DNA of 20,768 bases from IMG/VR virus record IMGVR_UViG_3300009002_000062, positions 1 to 20,768 of that record; one strand, written 5' to 3'. Below are positions 818-19,695 of this stretch, piece after piece. Position numbers and translations under genes: made by a program. The notes under the pieces were generated by a model. The model saw only the letters and a list, made by a program, of their open reading frames with translations. It had not been told where the DNA came from and made no database searches. This stretch comes from a virus. Each line of letters begins with the position of its first letter. The first letter of the stretch is position 1.

Positions 818-1123
818 TTATTTTCCAATACTTTTGACTTCGTCACGAGGAATGACTTGGTAACTACCCTTGTTATATCCAATCGCAACTGTGAAGTTCT
901 TAGACTCCTCAATCTTATATGATTGGTCTTTTGCGGGTGTATATCCCATCCCTGTAGAACTCATGGACGGATACTTCTCACGATGGTCATCACCATCACG
1001 TCCTAATGAATAATTGTCTAAGGGTTTGAATTTGGGTTTGTAAGGTTTCGCCTTCTTCCATGCATTGGTCTTACGTTTGCGTCCGTGCATATCGTACTTC
1101 ATTGAACCGTGAAATGTTTGCAT
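818..1123 (-). CDS. Basic hypothetical phage protein (101 aa)
   Basis: A 101-aa protein with a strongly basic N-terminal half (MKYDMHGRKRKTNAWKKAKP, then YKPKFKPLDNYS) and a more neutral C-terminal part. The frame is open to 1159, but the start at 1123 is preferred because GGAG lies 5 nt upstream of that ATG, while nothing resembling a binding site precedes the earlier ATG, which falls in the poly-U end of the non-coding RNA region. The opening FHGSMKYDMHGRKRKTNAWK looks like a recurrent small protein of marine T4-like phages, but I know no function. The basic charge would fit nucleic-acid binding (inference). It lies downstream of the promoter at 1424-1452 with a leader of about 300 nt. Confidence 0.78.
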   Translation of the reverse strand: MQTFHGSMKYDMHGRKRKTNAWKKAKPYKPKFKPLDNYSLGRDGDDHREKYPSMSSTGMGYTPAKDQSYKIEESKNFTVAIGYNKGSYQVIPRDEVKSIGK

Positions 1124-1417
1124 CACTACTCCATTCATTATAAAAAAAGGGACACCCATGATAGGGAATGAGAGCTACTGGAGTGACCAACTTAATGGTA
1201 TGTAACCTCGACATCTCATCCCCTAGGGCGGAATCTGCCTCATCCTATTGTCACACTGTGACTCAATGAGTTTAGTTCTCTCGATTTTGTTTTTTTACCT
1301 TTTCCACTTTGTATCGACTCTACCAATGGTATGTTAATCATTCGCAATAGAGTCTGTCGCTTATCACCTGAAAGTCACAAACTTCCCTAGGCGAGTGGTC
1401 ACGTTTTCCCAATCGAT
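1124..1417 (-). ncRNA. Structured non-coding leader or small RNA
   Basis: About 300 nt between the promoter at 1424-1452 and the ATG at 1123 hold no convincing gene but several inverted repeats, read on the minus strand: a compound hairpin (1393-1365) with CGCCT/AGGTG outside and GGAAGT/ACTTTC inside; a 7-bp stem GACTCTA/TAGAGTC on the transcript (1354-1348 with 1322-1316); CTCAT/ATGAG (1270-1266 with 1243-1239) enclosing GTCAC-AGT-GTGAC; and a 12-bp stem with one G-U pair (1225-1214 with 1173-1162). A GGGTGTCCC element followed by seven U residues (1157-1142) could end a free RNA of about 275 nt; its 3-bp stem is weak, so read-through into the 101-aa gene is likely. It is not a tRNA: no T-loop or acceptor pairing is seen. 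It matches no riboswitch I can recognise by eye. Confidence 0.55.
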
Positions 1418-1423
1418 ATGTGT

Positions 1424-1452
1424 ATAATACATGACTCAACAGGGTTTGTCAA
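1424..1452 (-). promoter_or_regulatory. Sigma70-type promoter for the structured RNA region
   Basis: Minus strand: TTGACA (1452-1447), 17-nt spacer, TATTAT (1429-1424, one mismatch). Seven A residues precede the -35. It lies just after the stop of the SGNH-like gene (1471) and points into the 300-nt non-coding structured stretch. The 15-nt block GTCAAGTCTTTTTTT (plus strand) is shared exactly with the promoter at 776-804. Confidence 0.82.
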
Positions 1453-6990: not shown

Positions 6991-8029
6991 CTGCAATCGC
7001 ATCCATATCTACTTTAGTTGCAAGACCCATTGAGTATTGAGATTTTAAGAAATCTGCAAAGTCAGTATTGTCAAACACTGGTTTCCAAAAATCTTCTTCG
7101 AGTGTATCGGCAAGTCTTACTTTACCTCCAACCATCTCTCCAGTTTCTTTATCAACGACACTGTACCAACCATTGGAAGGCTTAACAACATAACCCCCAA
7201 CAATAGCGACATCCAACAAACCACTAAAACGATGTACACCACCTTCCCAAGACACAGTGATAGGAATTTTTGACTTCTCTTTAACATAACGACTTTTCTC
7301 CACGTTAATGATAAAGCGGTAACCTTTCACTTCAGTACCAACCTTATCCTGCTGTCTTCCAAGAATCCAAATGTTGTCTGCGGAATAGTAGATACCTGTA
7401 CCACCTCCAACAATGTCTTTAGGGAATAGACCAATTTCTTTATAAGTGTGGTTGACGGCAAGCATTGGAATATTCTTCATTGTAAGATATGGGGTACACA
7501 TCCTGAAGAGACCCTTCAACGCTTTTGCACGGGACATATCAGCAACCGACTTCTCGTTAATCGCATCTTCCAATTCCTTCTTGGATGCGAGGTTACCTAT
7601 GGAGTCAATGACTACTATTACATCATCCGCTCTATCAAGATTTTCAAGTTGACCCACTAGGTCAAACTTAAGTTCTTCGACATTTGCGATTGGAGTATGT
7701 AACACCCGTTCGGTGTCTATACCGAATTGTTCAAAGTAAGATTGCGGCGAACCAAACTCACTATCGTAGAACAACATGACAGCATCTTTCTTCGCTTTCA
7801 TATAAGCACCCGCCATTAGTAGTGCGAACGAAGTTTTAAAATGCTTGGAAGGGCCTGCGAGGACGGTCAATCCTGGCGTGACACCACCGTCAATACTACC
7901 CGACAATGCAACGTTAACCATTGGCACGTCTGTCGGAACCATATCTTTTTCAGTGAAGAACTTACTATTCGCAAGTACTTCGGTAGTTTTGATTTTACTG
8001 TTTTTCTTCAGTTTGTCCATTATCGACAT
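6977..8029 (-). CDS. uvsX: UvsX RecA-like recombinase
   Basis: UvsX is the T4-type strand-exchange protein used in recombination-dependent replication and repair. The Walker A region reads LAGPSKHFKTSFALL (P-loop GPSKHFKT, residues 59-66), the Phe-containing variant characteristic of UvsX rather than RecA (T4 has GPSKSFKS). FYDSEFG (87-93) and the Walker B strand VIVVIDSIGNLASKKEL follow, then AVNHTYKEIG and VVGGGTGIYYSADNIWIL, typical of RecA-fold loops. At 350 aa it is shorter than T4 UvsX (about 390). ATG at 8029 has GGAGAAATGA just upstream. It overlaps the dehydrogenase gene by 35 nt and is probably driven by the intragenic promoter at 8194-8222. Confidence 0.95.
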   Translation of the reverse strand: MSIMDKLKKNSKIKTTEVLANSKFFTEKDMVPTDVPMVNVALSGSIDGGVTPGLTVLAGPSKHFKTSFALLMAGAYMKAKKDAVMLFYDSEFGSPQSYFEQFGIDTERVLHTPIANVEELKFDLVGQLENLDRADDVIVVIDSIGNLASKKELEDAINEKSVADMSRAKALKGLFRMCTPYLTMKNIPMLAVNHTYKEIGLFPKDIVGGGTGIYYSADNIWILGRQQDKVGTEVKGYRFIINVEKSRYVKEKSKIPITVSWEGGVHRFSGLLDVAIVGGYVVKPSNGWYSVVDKETGEMVGGKVRLADTLEEDFWKPVFDNTDFADFLKSQYSMGLATKVDMDAIADVEL

Positions 8030-9098
8030 TCATTTCTCCTTCAAATAAGTCTTCATCTGACTCTACATTATCTGTACTAACCTCTTGCACTCTTTCAGTG
8101 ATGGGGTCAGTTTCTTCTTTGGGTTTACCAAACGTGATATTGTTTGCTTTTTCCCTATCATCCAAATCATAGACTGTTCTATAATTTTTATTTATTATAT
8201 CAACTTCTGCAAGTAATGTCAAGTTCTTTTTATCAAAATTATTAAATGCAACTAAGTCTTTAGGGAAACATGCACCACCAAATCCTCGTTTACCATCATA
8301 ACCTGGCACACGTGTATGACCTACACCGATACGAGAATCCATACCAATAGTGTTCGCAACCGATGGCCAGTTACATCCAAATTCTGCGACTGTATCATAG
8401 AGTTGATTAAAGAATGTTACTTTGGTTGCAAGGAATGAGTTCACCCCATACTTGACGAATGCAGCTTCAGGTGCAGACAAATGTACAAACTTATCTGTAG
8501 TACATAGAGAGAACATAGAATAAATCTGTTCGATGTCTGAAGTACATTGTGGATGACCACCCAATACATGATAAGGTGCATTCACAAATTGTTCTTTTGC
8601 ATTTGACTCAGTAAGAAACTCAGGATTATAACAAAGACGTTTCATATCATTTTCATAAACAGAGTTTGCAATCCTATCAATAACATCGGGAGTGATTGTT
8701 GATTTGATAATAACAGCACCCTCGGTATCCTCGAAACATCTTAGGGTTGCATCCTCTACAATAGATGCATCAACAAATCCAGTCTCAGGGTTCATAGGTG
8801 TTGGGGCACAAATAAATGTAAGGTGAGGACTCCATGCAATGAGGTCATCAAGTGTTGTACCATGTTTGGGGTCAACATAAAACTTCTGTACATCAGGATG
8901 GGTGAATGCATAATCTACTGCACCACCAACAAACCCGTGTCCCACGATACCAATCTTAAGAACACCCATTTGTTCGGGATGTTCGGATGTTTGTTCCGGC
9001 ACCAATCTATCGACAGGGTTTTGACCTTCAAGATTGTTTGGGTCGTTAGGTTTCATTGGGTTTTCCCAATTACCTTCTAATGTTTGTTTTCTATTCAT
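7995..9098 (-). CDS. UDP-glucose/GDP-mannose dehydrogenase-like protein (367 aa)
   Basis: Family members oxidise a nucleotide sugar twice to the uronic acid with NAD+, for example UDP-glucose to UDP-glucuronate. Seen: the Rossmann motif KIGIVGHGFVGGA (48-60), the conserved NPEFLTESNA (158-167), the Lys in FVKYGVNSFLATKVTF (214-229) and the catalytic-cysteine motif GFGGACFPKD (272-281, Cys277). An extra N-terminal tail of about 45 residues precedes the Rossmann fold. After the active-site region only about 85 residues remain, ending in an acidic low-complexity tail, so the usual third (UDP-binding) domain appears absent. ATG at 9098 directly follows the epimerase stop, with AAGG 8 nt upstream. 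A full promoter lies inside its 3' part. Substrate is inferred from the epimerase neighbour. Confidence 0.82.
   Translation of the reverse strand: MNRKQTLEGNWENPMKPNDPNNLEGQNPVDRLVPEQTSEHPEQMGVLKIGIVGHGFVGGAVDYAFTHPDVQKFYVDPKHGTTLDDLIAWSPHLTFICAPTPMNPETGFVDASIVEDATLRCFEDTEGAVIIKSTITPDVIDRIANSVYENDMKRLCYNPEFLTESNAKEQFVNAPYHVLGGHPQCTSDIEQIYSMFSLCTTDKFVHLSAPEAAFVKYGVNSFLATKVTFFNQLYDTVAEFGCNWPSVANTIGMDSRIGVGHTRVPGYDGKRGFGGACFPKDLVAFNNFDKKNLTLLAEVDIINKNYRTVYDLDDREKANNITFGKPKEETDPITERVQEVSTDNVESDEDLFEGEMNVDNGQTEEKQ
8194..8222 (-). promoter_or_regulatory. Consensus promoter inside the dehydrogenase gene, for uvsX
   Basis: Minus strand: TTGACA (8222-8217), 17-nt spacer, TATAAT (8199-8194), a perfect match. 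It is embedded in codons for NLTLLAEVDIINKN of the dehydrogenase, 165 nt before the UvsX start. No other promoter is seen between the one at 11015-11043 and uvsX, so this is the likely source of the uvsX-gp41-thyX transcript. Confidence 0.8.
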
Positions 9099-10037
9099 TT
9101 AATTTACCTTATAAAAATGTTTATACCAGTCTACGAATGCTCGTACACCTACTTCAATATTAGTCTTAGGTTTATACCCTAATCCTTCCAGTTTCTCAGT
9201 ATTACTCCAAGTCTCCAGCGTGTCTGCGGGATGTCTTGGTGCAAGTTTGATGATAGGTTGTCTACCAAGTTCTTTACCTATACATTCGATGAAATGCATT
9301 AACTCTACTTGTTTCCCTCGACCTATATTATATATCTCACCACTAGGAATGTCACTTAACATCGCAATCTTAATTCCTTCAATGATATCCGCAATGTAGG
9401 TAAAGTCTCGTTTCATATCACCATAGTTGAATGCTTCAATCTCTTCACCCGCAATAATCTTTTGGGTGAATTGAAAGAGTGCCATATCAGGTCTCCCCCA
9501 AGGGCCGTATACTGTGAAGAACCTTAGTCCTACATTGTTAAGACCACTAATCTTAAATTGACATTCGTTCACACGTTTAGTGTACGCATAGGCGTTTAAT
9601 TGGTGACCCGTAACATCTTCTTCTGTCCATCCATCCTTTGGAATAGGTGTTCCACCATAGATAGAACTTGTAGATGCATATAGAACCTTACCAACATTAT
9701 ACAACTTACAACACTGGATTAGATTTTGTGTTGCATCAATATTGTCTTGATGATATAAAACTTCTTTACCAACTGAATCACGAACACCAGCACGAGCACC
9801 TAGGTGAACTACAATGTCAGGTTGATACTCATTAAAGAAAGTGTCAAGTGCATCGAAGTCTTTCATATCGACATTTTCTACCATATGGTCGAATGCATCA
9901 ATACGTGCATGTTTTAGTGCGGGGTCGTAATAGTCATTGAAACTATCTAGTCCAATAACGTCTAGTCCTTCACCTAGTAAATCTAAACAAAGGTGACTAC
10001 CAATGAACCCTGCGGCTCCTGTTACACAAATTCTCAT
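9099..10037 (-). CDS. NAD-dependent epimerase, UDP-glucuronate 4-epimerase-like (312 aa)
   Basis: An extended short-chain dehydrogenase/epimerase: the nucleotide-binding motif VTGAAGFIGSHL (5-16), the segment GLDSFNDYYDPALKHARI (29-46), very like that of UDP-glucuronate 4-epimerases, the catalytic ASTSSIYGG (121-129), and YAYTK (Tyr150, Lys154). RFFTVYGPWGRPDMA is also typical of that subgroup. The reaction would interconvert UDP-glucuronate and UDP-galacturonate in the cytoplasm. It ends exactly where the dehydrogenase gene begins, and that neighbour could supply its substrate. The start at 10037 directly follows the upstream stop (gap 0). GalE or WcaG-type activity is a possible alternative. 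Confidence 0.85.
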   Translation of the reverse strand: MRICVTGAAGFIGSHLCLDLLGEGLDVIGLDSFNDYYDPALKHARIDAFDHMVENVDMKDFDALDTFFNEYQPDIVVHLGARAGVRDSVGKEVLYHQDNIDATQNLIQCCKLYNVGKVLYASTSSIYGGTPIPKDGWTEEDVTGHQLNAYAYTKRVNECQFKISGLNNVGLRFFTVYGPWGRPDMALFQFTQKIIAGEEIEAFNYGDMKRDFTYIADIIEGIKIAMLSDIPSGEIYNIGRGKQVELMHFIECIGKELGRQPIIKLAPRHPADTLETWSNTEKLEGLGYKPKTNIEVGVRAFVDWYKHFYKVN

Positions 10038-11895: not shown

Positions 11896-12335
11896 TACCC
11901 ATTCCATTTATAATAATATTTTATAGCACTATTTAGAGTGTTTAGATTTTCGTTAAACCCATTAGAACCATATGCGATATTACAATGTTGACATATCCAT
12001 TCTCTAGGTTCACCCGTGACGTGGTCGTGGTCAAGAACAAATGGAGACTTATTCTGCCACCCATTATGTTCACCCTTCAGTTCTTCCTCATTCCTATTAC
12101 AGATAGGACATGTATGATTATCAGGACACTTACCCGCAAGTTGTTTTGCAAGTCTCGTTTGTTTGTTTAACTTATTCTTACAACAAGAACATTCATTACG
12201 TCTATTCTGTCGGGTATGTGCAAAGTTTTCTTTCTTACCACTTCTTAATCCAAACTCATGAATGTGTTTTTCTGTACCACAAAGTGAACACACCTTGGTC
12301 TCAATATCATCCACCTCTCCCCATAATGTCATCAT
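11895..12335 (-). CDS. Endonuclease VII/HNH-like nuclease (146 aa)
   Basis: The C-terminal half has CPIC (76-79), [15 protein letters not shown] (99-113), CQHC (115-118) and a final helix [14 protein letters not shown]. This is the zinc-bound beta-beta-alpha metal nuclease pattern of recombination endonuclease VII (T4 gp49), which resolves branched DNA, and of related HNH enzymes. An unusual N-terminal second zinc-binding motif is present (CSLC at 16-19 and CSCC at 49-52). The start at 12335 (ATGA overlap with the polymerase stop) is preferred to an ATG at 12377 that would overlap by 46 nt; GGAGG is 11 nt upstream. It could be a gp49-type resolvase or a free-standing homing-type HNH enzyme beside the polymerase gene. 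Confidence 0.78.
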
Positions 12336-14803
12336 CCAAAGAAGTCCTCCAATGATGCACGGGGTTCCGCACTCCAACCAACCGCATCAAGGATTGGTTC
12401 AAGGGGGTCAAGGAATGTTTTCTTGAACATCTTATCATAATCAATATACTGTTGCAGTCCCAACTCACGAGGTAAGTTTTGTGGATATGAGATAATGTTT
12501 TCTTTTATCGGGTTAGGGACTTTGAGATATACGAATTTAATCTTCTCACCATTCTTGATAATCTCATGACGCAATCCTTTTGACTTTACGTTATGATTGT
12601 ACAACAATGCACCACGAACATGGATAGGTGTACCCTTACTATAGATGGTCTTTGCGTCCCTCCACTTCTTGATATTAGATACACCACGAGGGAACGAGAT
12701 ATCTTCTGCGGGAAGTTTGTTGAACTGACTGCGGAAGTTTCTTATATACTTTTGTGTCTCACCCTCAGTCCCTTTCACCACAATACCAAACATCTCTTTC
12801 ATCTTGTCACGAACAACCATAGGTGTTGATGACTTGACCGCTTCGATACCCATTAGTTTGAGTTTGGGTTTTGCATACTGGACACCTTCGTTGTTGTGAA
12901 CATTCAGAATGTATCTCTTCTTCGCAACCCATATTGCTTTGTCTGCAATAACCTCACGTCCCATCTCCATACGGTTTTCGTATGCACCTGTATAGTCTGC
13001 GAGTTCTTGATACGTCTCGGTCAATACTTTCTCGAAGTGGGTCTTACATATCTTGTCTAGAAACTTGACAGGGTTCTTGGGGTTTGTTTTGGAAACAAGA
13101 GATGACATATTAACATACAAGGACTCAGTATCGATTGCGATAACATAGTCCTTGTTAGTACCAAGGAGTTTGTTCATCTCGTCATTCATCTTCCTCTCTG
13201 CCCATAGGATGGATAACTGACCCGCAAGTGTAACGGACTCTGCAACACGTTGGTCAAAGTATCTGAACCACCTGTTACCCAATGCACCATAAAGAGAGTT
13301 CATCAAAATCTTGATAGACATCTGTTGATTGTCTAGGGTTGATATCTTGTTTCTCAATGCGTGGGTTGGTGCGGTCTCATACTCTTGTTGTGCTTCCAAC
13401 ATTTGTTTTTTGATAACTTTACGTTCATCATAGTACTCACGAATGATAGAGGGGATGACACCTGTACGGTCTTTCTTGAATCGAACTCCACTAGGTGCAG
13501 TTGCAAAATCTTCTTTGCGGGTCACCTCGGTCTGTTTGTATAACATGCGACCAACGTCAGTATCAACCAAACCATCGGTGACGGTTTCGGGGGACATGTT
13601 GTATTGTACAAGGATGTTAGGATATAGAGAGTTCAAGTCAAAGGAAGTCACCCAGTCATGTGAACCTACTTGGGGTTCTTTCACATAACCACCCGCATAT
13701 TCACCCTTGGGTTTCTCGACTTTCTGTGGGATTGCAATCTTACGTTTGTTCAACATACGATAGATGATTGCATCCCAAATCGCAGTAGTACCCATGACAT
13801 CATTATAGTTAACACCACCACGATATGCCATAGTCAATGCAAGGTCAATCAGACCTAGGTTTTCATCTAACTTTGCAACCAACTCAACGTCTTTGATATT
13901 GTAGTCAATAAACTTTTGGTGGTCATTCTTGTAGAGTGTGTGTAGGTTACCGTGTTCTTCATACGAGAGTTTACGTTCACCGAGTATCACGTGTGCGATA
14001 TGGTCAAGTCGATAACTCTCTTGTTGACCTAGGGTGTTGTAAGTAAACTTCTTGAACAGGTCATAGTAATCTAGAGATGCGATACCCATAATGTCATAAG
14101 TATTTGAATCAGGGATAAAGACATTACCACGCACAACTTTGGGGGTGACCTTTCCCCACGGGGATAGTCTTGAAACCTCTTCTTCTCCGAAACATTTACG
14201 GATACGGTTCACGAGGTAAGGGATATCAAAGTTCTTAGTATTCCAACCCGTGACGATATCAGGGTCAAGAGACGTGTGCCAGTACTCAACAAACTTATGT
14301 AATAGTGCAGTTTCACTTTCACATTTTACATAGATTACATTTTCGGGGGACTCATATTCACCAAGACCAAACACAATGTATTTGTCACTGCGGGTAGACT
14401 TTAGTGCAATAGAGATTACAGGATAGTTTGCTTTGTCGGGTTCAGGGAATCCATCATCGGACTGCACCTCAATATCAATAGTCACGATGTTCATGACCTC
14501 ACGATTATAAGAGATTGTGTCAGGATACTTTTGTGCAATGAACTGATAGATGTAATTATTCATACCGAACACTTCCATGTTCTGTACGTTCTCATACCGT
14601 TTCGTGAAGTCAGTCGCATCACGCATAGTATCAAACTCTAGGGAATCAACTGACTGCCCTTGTAGATTTTTCCACGAACCCTTCTCACTTCGGACGAATA
14701 GTGTGGGTTTGAATGGTATCTTTTTATGAACCCTCTCAGTCCCGTTGTATCCTCGGTATAGTAGGTTGTTACCAAAACGCTCGACAGTAGTGTAGAAATC
14801 CAT
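12332..14803 (-). CDS. 43: Family B DNA polymerase gp43
   Basis: The replicative polymerase, with 3'-5' exonuclease and polymerase domains in 823 aa (T4 gp43 is about 900). Exonuclease: ExoI TIDIEVQS (108-115, D110/E112), Exo[15 protein letters not shown] (185-197), Exo[12 protein letters not shown] (301-309). Polymerase: motif [12 protein letters not shown] (387-397, D389), motif [14 protein letters not shown] (498-510), motif [11 protein letters not shown] (555-564) and a KKRY motif (628-631). Motif C reads DTE where DTD is the rule. The C-terminal SLEDFFG looks like a clamp-binding tail for gp45. ATG at 14803 has AAAAAAGGA 7 nt upstream. A 5-codon frame (MKKGI) lies between promoter and start. 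It is the first real gene after the promoter at 14831-14859. Confidence 0.97.
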
Positions 14804-19666: not shown

Positions 19667-19695
19667 ATTGTACATTATATGAAACGTTTTGTCAA
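19667..19695 (-). promoter_or_regulatory. Sigma70-type promoter for gp44
   Basis: Minus strand: TTGACA (19695-19690), 17-nt spacer, TACAAT (19672-19667, one mismatch). A TATAAT word also occurs inside the spacer at too short a distance. It lies 35 nt upstream of the gp44 start. Confidence 0.78.

Follow-up and report, generated by a model that had tools for sequence, protein, structure and literature searches.

A candidate structured non-coding RNA with its own promoter at two loci in marine T4-like phages

Introduction

What is transcribed from a near-consensus promoter when no gene follows it for about 280 nt? The window (the whole stretch analysed, a 20.8-kb IMG/VR virus record of 20,768 nt) carries T4-like replication genes, and its main genes are all on the minus strand. 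A sequence-only reading had proposed that a promoter near one end drives a structured non-coding RNA (ncRNA) of about 280 nt, and had offered as functions a phage sRNA, a 5' leader or riboswitch of the downstream 101-aa basic protein, and a packaging or decoy RNA. For marine T4-like phages, few structured ncRNAs with strong comparative backing are on record. The locus was followed up by homologue searches, comparative folding, analysis of gene context and comparison with known RNAs.

A predicted transcription unit without a gene

Both the promoter and the scarcity of genes behind it were borne out (Table 1). No ORF was intact or conserved across five distinct RNA sequences; a GTG frame of 10–12 codons (VTTRLGKFVT) over hairpin P3 was open in four of the five and frameshifted in L026. 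No tRNA or tmRNA was found in the window by ARAGORN. The inverted repeats that had been named were all present, namely 1214–1225 with 1162–1173 (12 bp, P6b), 1348–1354 with 1316–1322 (7 bp, P4a) and 1365–1393 (P3), as were the GGG/CCC element and the seven U (GGGUGUCCC-U7). The promoter position was kept in all five distinct sequences (alignment A5), with TTGCCA or TTGACA, a 17-nt spacer and TATTAT, TATAGT or TATAAT, which suggests that the ncRNA has a promoter of its own.

Table 1. Coordinates of the predicted RNA and adjoining features in the window
Feature	Positions	Strand	Remarks
Predicted sigma-70-type promoter	1424..1452	-	TTGACA-17-TATTAT, 11/12; predicted start near 1417
Predicted structured ncRNA, about 276 nt	1142..1417	-	Folding, alignment, covariation
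Domain I	1281..1416	-	Closed by P1
Three-way junction, P2 + P3 + P4	1304..1398	-	P2 = 1398–1395 with 1307–1304; folding, covariation, R1/R3 models
P3 hairpin (two-tier hairpin of the sequence-only reading)	1364..1394	-	Apical AAGUUUGUGACUU invariant in 5/5
P4 hairpin	1316..1354	-	GACUCUA/UAGAGUC and AAUG/CAUU; invariant loop GAUUAACA
P5 hairpin, domain II	1231..1278	-	Hairpin retained, sequence mostly replaced between lineages
P6, domain III	1153..1230	-	5 + 12 bp stem
U7 tract	1142..1148	-	4 nt beyond P6 stem
101-aa basic protein gene	818..1123	-	Downstream of RNA, not part of RNA

In the window lineage the RNA is flanked by a 287-aa gene and by the 101-aa gene; the latter begins 18 nt past the U7 tract and has no visible promoter of its own in the window. 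Because a gap separates the U tract from the stem and no other promoter is seen there, readthrough into the 101-aa gene is likely in this lineage; the tract is probably a leaky terminator, and the ncRNA probably also serves as leader of that gene.

Nine minus-strand promoters were recognised in the window (at 19695, 17934, 14859, 11332, 11043, 8222, 3178, 1452 and 804), each of which combines TTGACA, a spacer of exactly 17 nt and TATAAT or a single-mismatch form of it; seven of them match at 12/12. This set is unusually uniform and near-perfectly host-type for a T4-like phage. The eight others stand immediately 5' of a gene or within the upstream gene; a gene-free leader of about 280 nt follows the promoter at 1452 only.

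Homologous RNAs in related phages

The RNA was found in eight IMG/VR contigs of marine T4-like phages besides the window record, with one copy per contig searched, giving five distinct sequences in two lineages. Searches with the 101-aa protein led to L001, the same phage as the window (99.9%), and to L002 and L003 (as whole contigs, L024 and L026), which carry the RNA and are about 82% identical to the window over the surrounding DNA; against that background, the copies of domain I in the window and in L024 show only 4 differences in about 139 positions. R1, a covariance model built on domain I, was run over whole related contigs and matched a 149-kb contig at E = 1.5e-17, a distant copy lying far from the 101-aa gene of the same contig (14.8 kb versus about 86 kb). 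A loop-anchored pattern search retrieved L041, L042, L043, L044 and L045, of which L041–L044 are nearly one phage (99.9% identical) and L045 is 86–93% identical to L041. RNA and promoter of the window and L041 align at 80% over 222 nt despite their different loci.

The closest annotated genome to the window is that of phage C48C1 (DNA polymerase 61%, UvsX/RecA-like protein 79%), whose record gives no host. The R3 model found no match in ten reference phage genomes (C48C1, pelagiphages, cyanophages and others); matches in HTVC008M at E about 1 were discarded as chance. Comparison of the RNA by blastn with phages and plasmids returned chance matches of 20–30 nt only, and a pattern scan of bacterial and archaeal genomes gave 16 stretches, none of them confirmed by R1 or R3. 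Candidates L037–L040 and L046–L049 were likewise set aside as chance pattern matches. Under strict filters, R3 matched none of 197 genomes from the same order as a Pelagibacteraceae genome, none of 274 from the same class as a Pseudoalteromonas genome and none of four single genomes, a result that does not decide against a homologue in the actual host. Mimicry of a known host RNA is thus without support, since no homologue was seen in the bacterial genomes, plasmids and isolated phages tried.

Secondary structure and its comparative support

Domain I is closed by P1 (1416–1411 with 1286–1281), in which the 5' end pairs with the linker. P1 (helix 1) is 100% paired across the alignment, and two of its pairs changed on both sides (U-A/C-G and C-G/U-A). 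P2 is invariant, so covariation says nothing on it, and some outer pairs of P3 are disturbed in L041 and L045. Covariation was seen in P4 (helices 4 and 5; U-A to C-G and A-U to C-G) and in P5 (helix 7), where GUCAC/GUGAC became GUUAC/GUAAC and P5c adds a C-G to U-A change. In P6 (helices 8 and 9) five pairs changed on both sides; the small apical hairpin, compared by eye, reads ACCA/UGGU, ACAC/GUGU or ACUC/GAGU. In the sister lineage P6 makes a predicted intrinsic-terminator stem, with a GGGGGUUUUUUUU end in L036. P1, and P5 as a conserved hairpin, had escaped the sequence-only reading. Two further pairings were rejected: UUUGUGACU of P3 with AGUCACA of P5, which competes for a strand of the local, covarying P5 hairpin (C-G to U-A), and 5' GGGA with 3' UCCC, for which L041 offers no pairing partner at the corresponding place and which was left out of the consensus.

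Folding energies were compared with those of shuffled sequences. As a single sequence the whole stretch was only modestly better than shuffles on the minus strand (z = -1.66, a level reached by 9/200 shuffles; on the plus strand, z = -0.46), too little to decide the matter by itself. The excess was clearer for the two main domains (z = -2.9, 0/200, and z = -2.5, 4/200) and far beyond chance for the five-sequence alignment (energy -106.4; shuffles -72.9 on average, with sd 5.2; z = -6.5, 0/200). The compensatory changes that had been looked to in related phages were also present. The proposed helices paired in 94.2% of cells of A5, with 11 pairs changing on both sides and 19 double-change cells, counts that come from five distinct sequences in two lineages and hence represent few independent events. 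In a control with partners slid by 1–3 columns, 34.7–46.4% of cells paired, with 0–2 both-side pairs and 0–3 double changes. Covariation was distributed over P1, P4, P5, P6a and P6b, a pattern over several helices that is hard to explain otherwise than by RNA structure.

The invariant stretches, comprising the P3 apex, the P3/P4 junction (UAAGCGAC), the P4 loop and UUGGGAA near the 5' end, all lie inside the folded domain, and the A-rich linker is deleted in L045. By eye, a kissing contact between the P3 loop (UGUG) and the P4 loop (CAUA/CACA) is possible and kept in all five sequences, with little variation at these positions. Invariant loops and junction in a folded core, together with a dispensable linker and a freely changing P5, favour a folded recognition surface over an antisense seed. 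An antisense-type small RNA, whose unpaired stretches base-pair to mRNAs of the phage or the host, would be a sub-case of a standalone RNA and would suit a unit with promoter and terminator whose A-rich linker and loops are unpaired. We regard it as somewhat unlikely, however: the conserved letters sit in structured loops and junction, the linker can be lost, and a rough duplex screen of 12 genes that L041 has in common with the window revealed no target whose site occurs in both.

Two genomic settings

In L041–L045 the neighbours of the RNA are a 267-aa gene and the gene of DNA polymerase gp43. Sequence comparison established the following order at this second locus: a predicted promoter (TTGACA-17-TATAAT, 12/12), the RNA, CCCCC...GGGGGUUUUUUUU, a further predicted promoter (TTGACT-17-TATAAT) and gp43. 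The putative terminator is strong in L041 and L045 (P6 stem GGGGG plus U8); that of the window lineage is weaker. In the window, no RNA precedes gp43, which is served by a promoter of its own placed immediately behind the upstream gene. Nor does the RNA accompany the 101-aa gene of L009–L012, whose own promoter stands 54 nt before it; L011 shares a contig with RNA copy L044. The 101-aa homologues L004–L014 and L021 have other sequence upstream in place of the RNA, several of them with a promoter 54–55 nt before the start. Each of the two genes thus occurs both beside the RNA and without it, and the RNA can accompany either of them. The conserved unit is promoter-RNA-terminator.

In L013, L014 and L021 a small ORF (MTKHELLSIHLNNSDLNLTNLSN...) with its own promoter takes the place of the RNA, in the stretch from about 280 to 55 nt ahead of the 101-aa homologue, as if the site before this gene were an exchange point for small cassettes.

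A 5' leader (attenuator or riboswitch), sensing something and controlling the downstream gene in cis, would account for a three-way junction followed by a terminator-like hairpin, which is riboswitch-like anatomy, and for the RNA of the window, L024 and L026, which directly precedes a 101-aa gene lacking its own promoter. Such a role is nevertheless improbable, and the proposal as made for the 101-aa gene is not supported by the second locus: the RNA is not confined to the 5' UTR of one gene or pathway, gp43 is separated from it by a strong terminator and a promoter, and the 101-aa homologues L004–L014 and L021 have other sequence upstream. Nor was a riboswitch matched in Rfam or an alternative antiterminator helix identified. 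The presence of a promoter and a terminator at the second locus, with a separate promoter for gp43, points to a standalone unit.

Proposed mode of action

Our preferred reading, held at a probability of roughly 0.7, is that of a discrete, early-transcribed, structured phage ncRNA that most likely acts in trans; a phage sRNA is the best fit among the functions that had been offered. Action in trans is favoured because the promoter-RNA-terminator unit has been kept although it stands at two different genome sites; this separates the ncRNA from cis regulation and points to a trans role early in infection. From the sequences compared, we infer the following course. Host RNA polymerase would initiate at the consensus promoter early in infection, and the transcript of about 280 nt would fold into the closed three-way-junction domain (P1–P4), the variable hairpin P5 and the long terminator hairpin P6. 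Transcription would stop at the U tract and a discrete RNA be released, the folded core of which may be recognised by a host or phage protein or RNA, the ncRNA serving as regulator or decoy. Given a defined transcription unit, a covariation-backed fold and exact invariant loops, the partner can be sought directly. More tentatively, and with the odds against it, the RNA could represent a functional class of its own, in which a compact, structured molecule produced as infection begins binds and redirects a machine of the host or a component of its defence, and which marine T4-like phages carry as a movable cassette of promoter, RNA and terminator.

Relation to known RNAs

No Rfam 15 family matched the window at the gathering threshold, and in E-value mode the best sub-threshold matches to the RNAs of the window, L041 and L045 had E = 2 or worse. 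No description of the RNA was found in the open-access literature, the coverage of which was incomplete. Judged by these comparisons, it is a real new RNA family, absent from Rfam, of a known kind (phage-encoded small structured RNA).

Phage T4 stable RNAs C and D are small, stable RNAs without an established function located in the tRNA cluster; by description, the window RNA resembles them as a small RNA of a T4-type phage but has no tRNA nearby. The phi29 pRNA, which has an Rfam family, is likewise a phage-encoded structured RNA but belongs to another phage type, and no Rfam match was obtained here. A packaging or virion-associated RNA would be expected to be phage-encoded, compact and structured, as this one is, but the reading is very improbable: Rfam reported no match, the RNA is absent from the complete relative C48C1, and to our knowledge T4-like phages package without a known RNA. 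That there is no RNA at all, but a fortuitous cluster of inverted repeats or the remnant of a gene, would agree with the mild single-sequence z-score and is equally remote, being already contradicted by the covariation, the alignment z-score and a promoter-linked unit conserved at two loci.

The ncRNAs reported in T4-like cyanophages for the most part act in cis or run antisense to a photosynthesis gene. The preferred standalone ncRNA shares their setting in marine T4-like phages but has its own promoter and predicted terminator, and no Rfam match. The cyanophage ncRNAs so reported are CFrI, PhotoRC-II, wcaG and the glutamine riboswitch (PMC9964418). GOLLD and ROOL resemble the window RNA in being phage-encoded, structured and non-coding with no established function, and a GOLLD RNA was originally discovered in marine material (PMC12286853). 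Lengths above 800 nt are common among GOLLD RNAs, and GOLLD and ROOL often lie near tRNA islands (PMC12286853), unlike the window RNA, which at about 280 nt, with no tRNA in the window and no match in Rfam, does not belong to either family.

Other features of the replication module

In the motif C region the window gp43 (12332–14803, minus strand) has DTES, against DTDS (IAIDTDSVYMRM) in the sister lineage L041; the D-to-E change, at a normally catalytic aspartate, may be genuine or may stem from a sequencing error. Genes for a UDP-glucose dehydrogenase and a nucleotide-sugar epimerase (7995–10037, minus strand) lie inside the replication module, as in C48C1 and L041.
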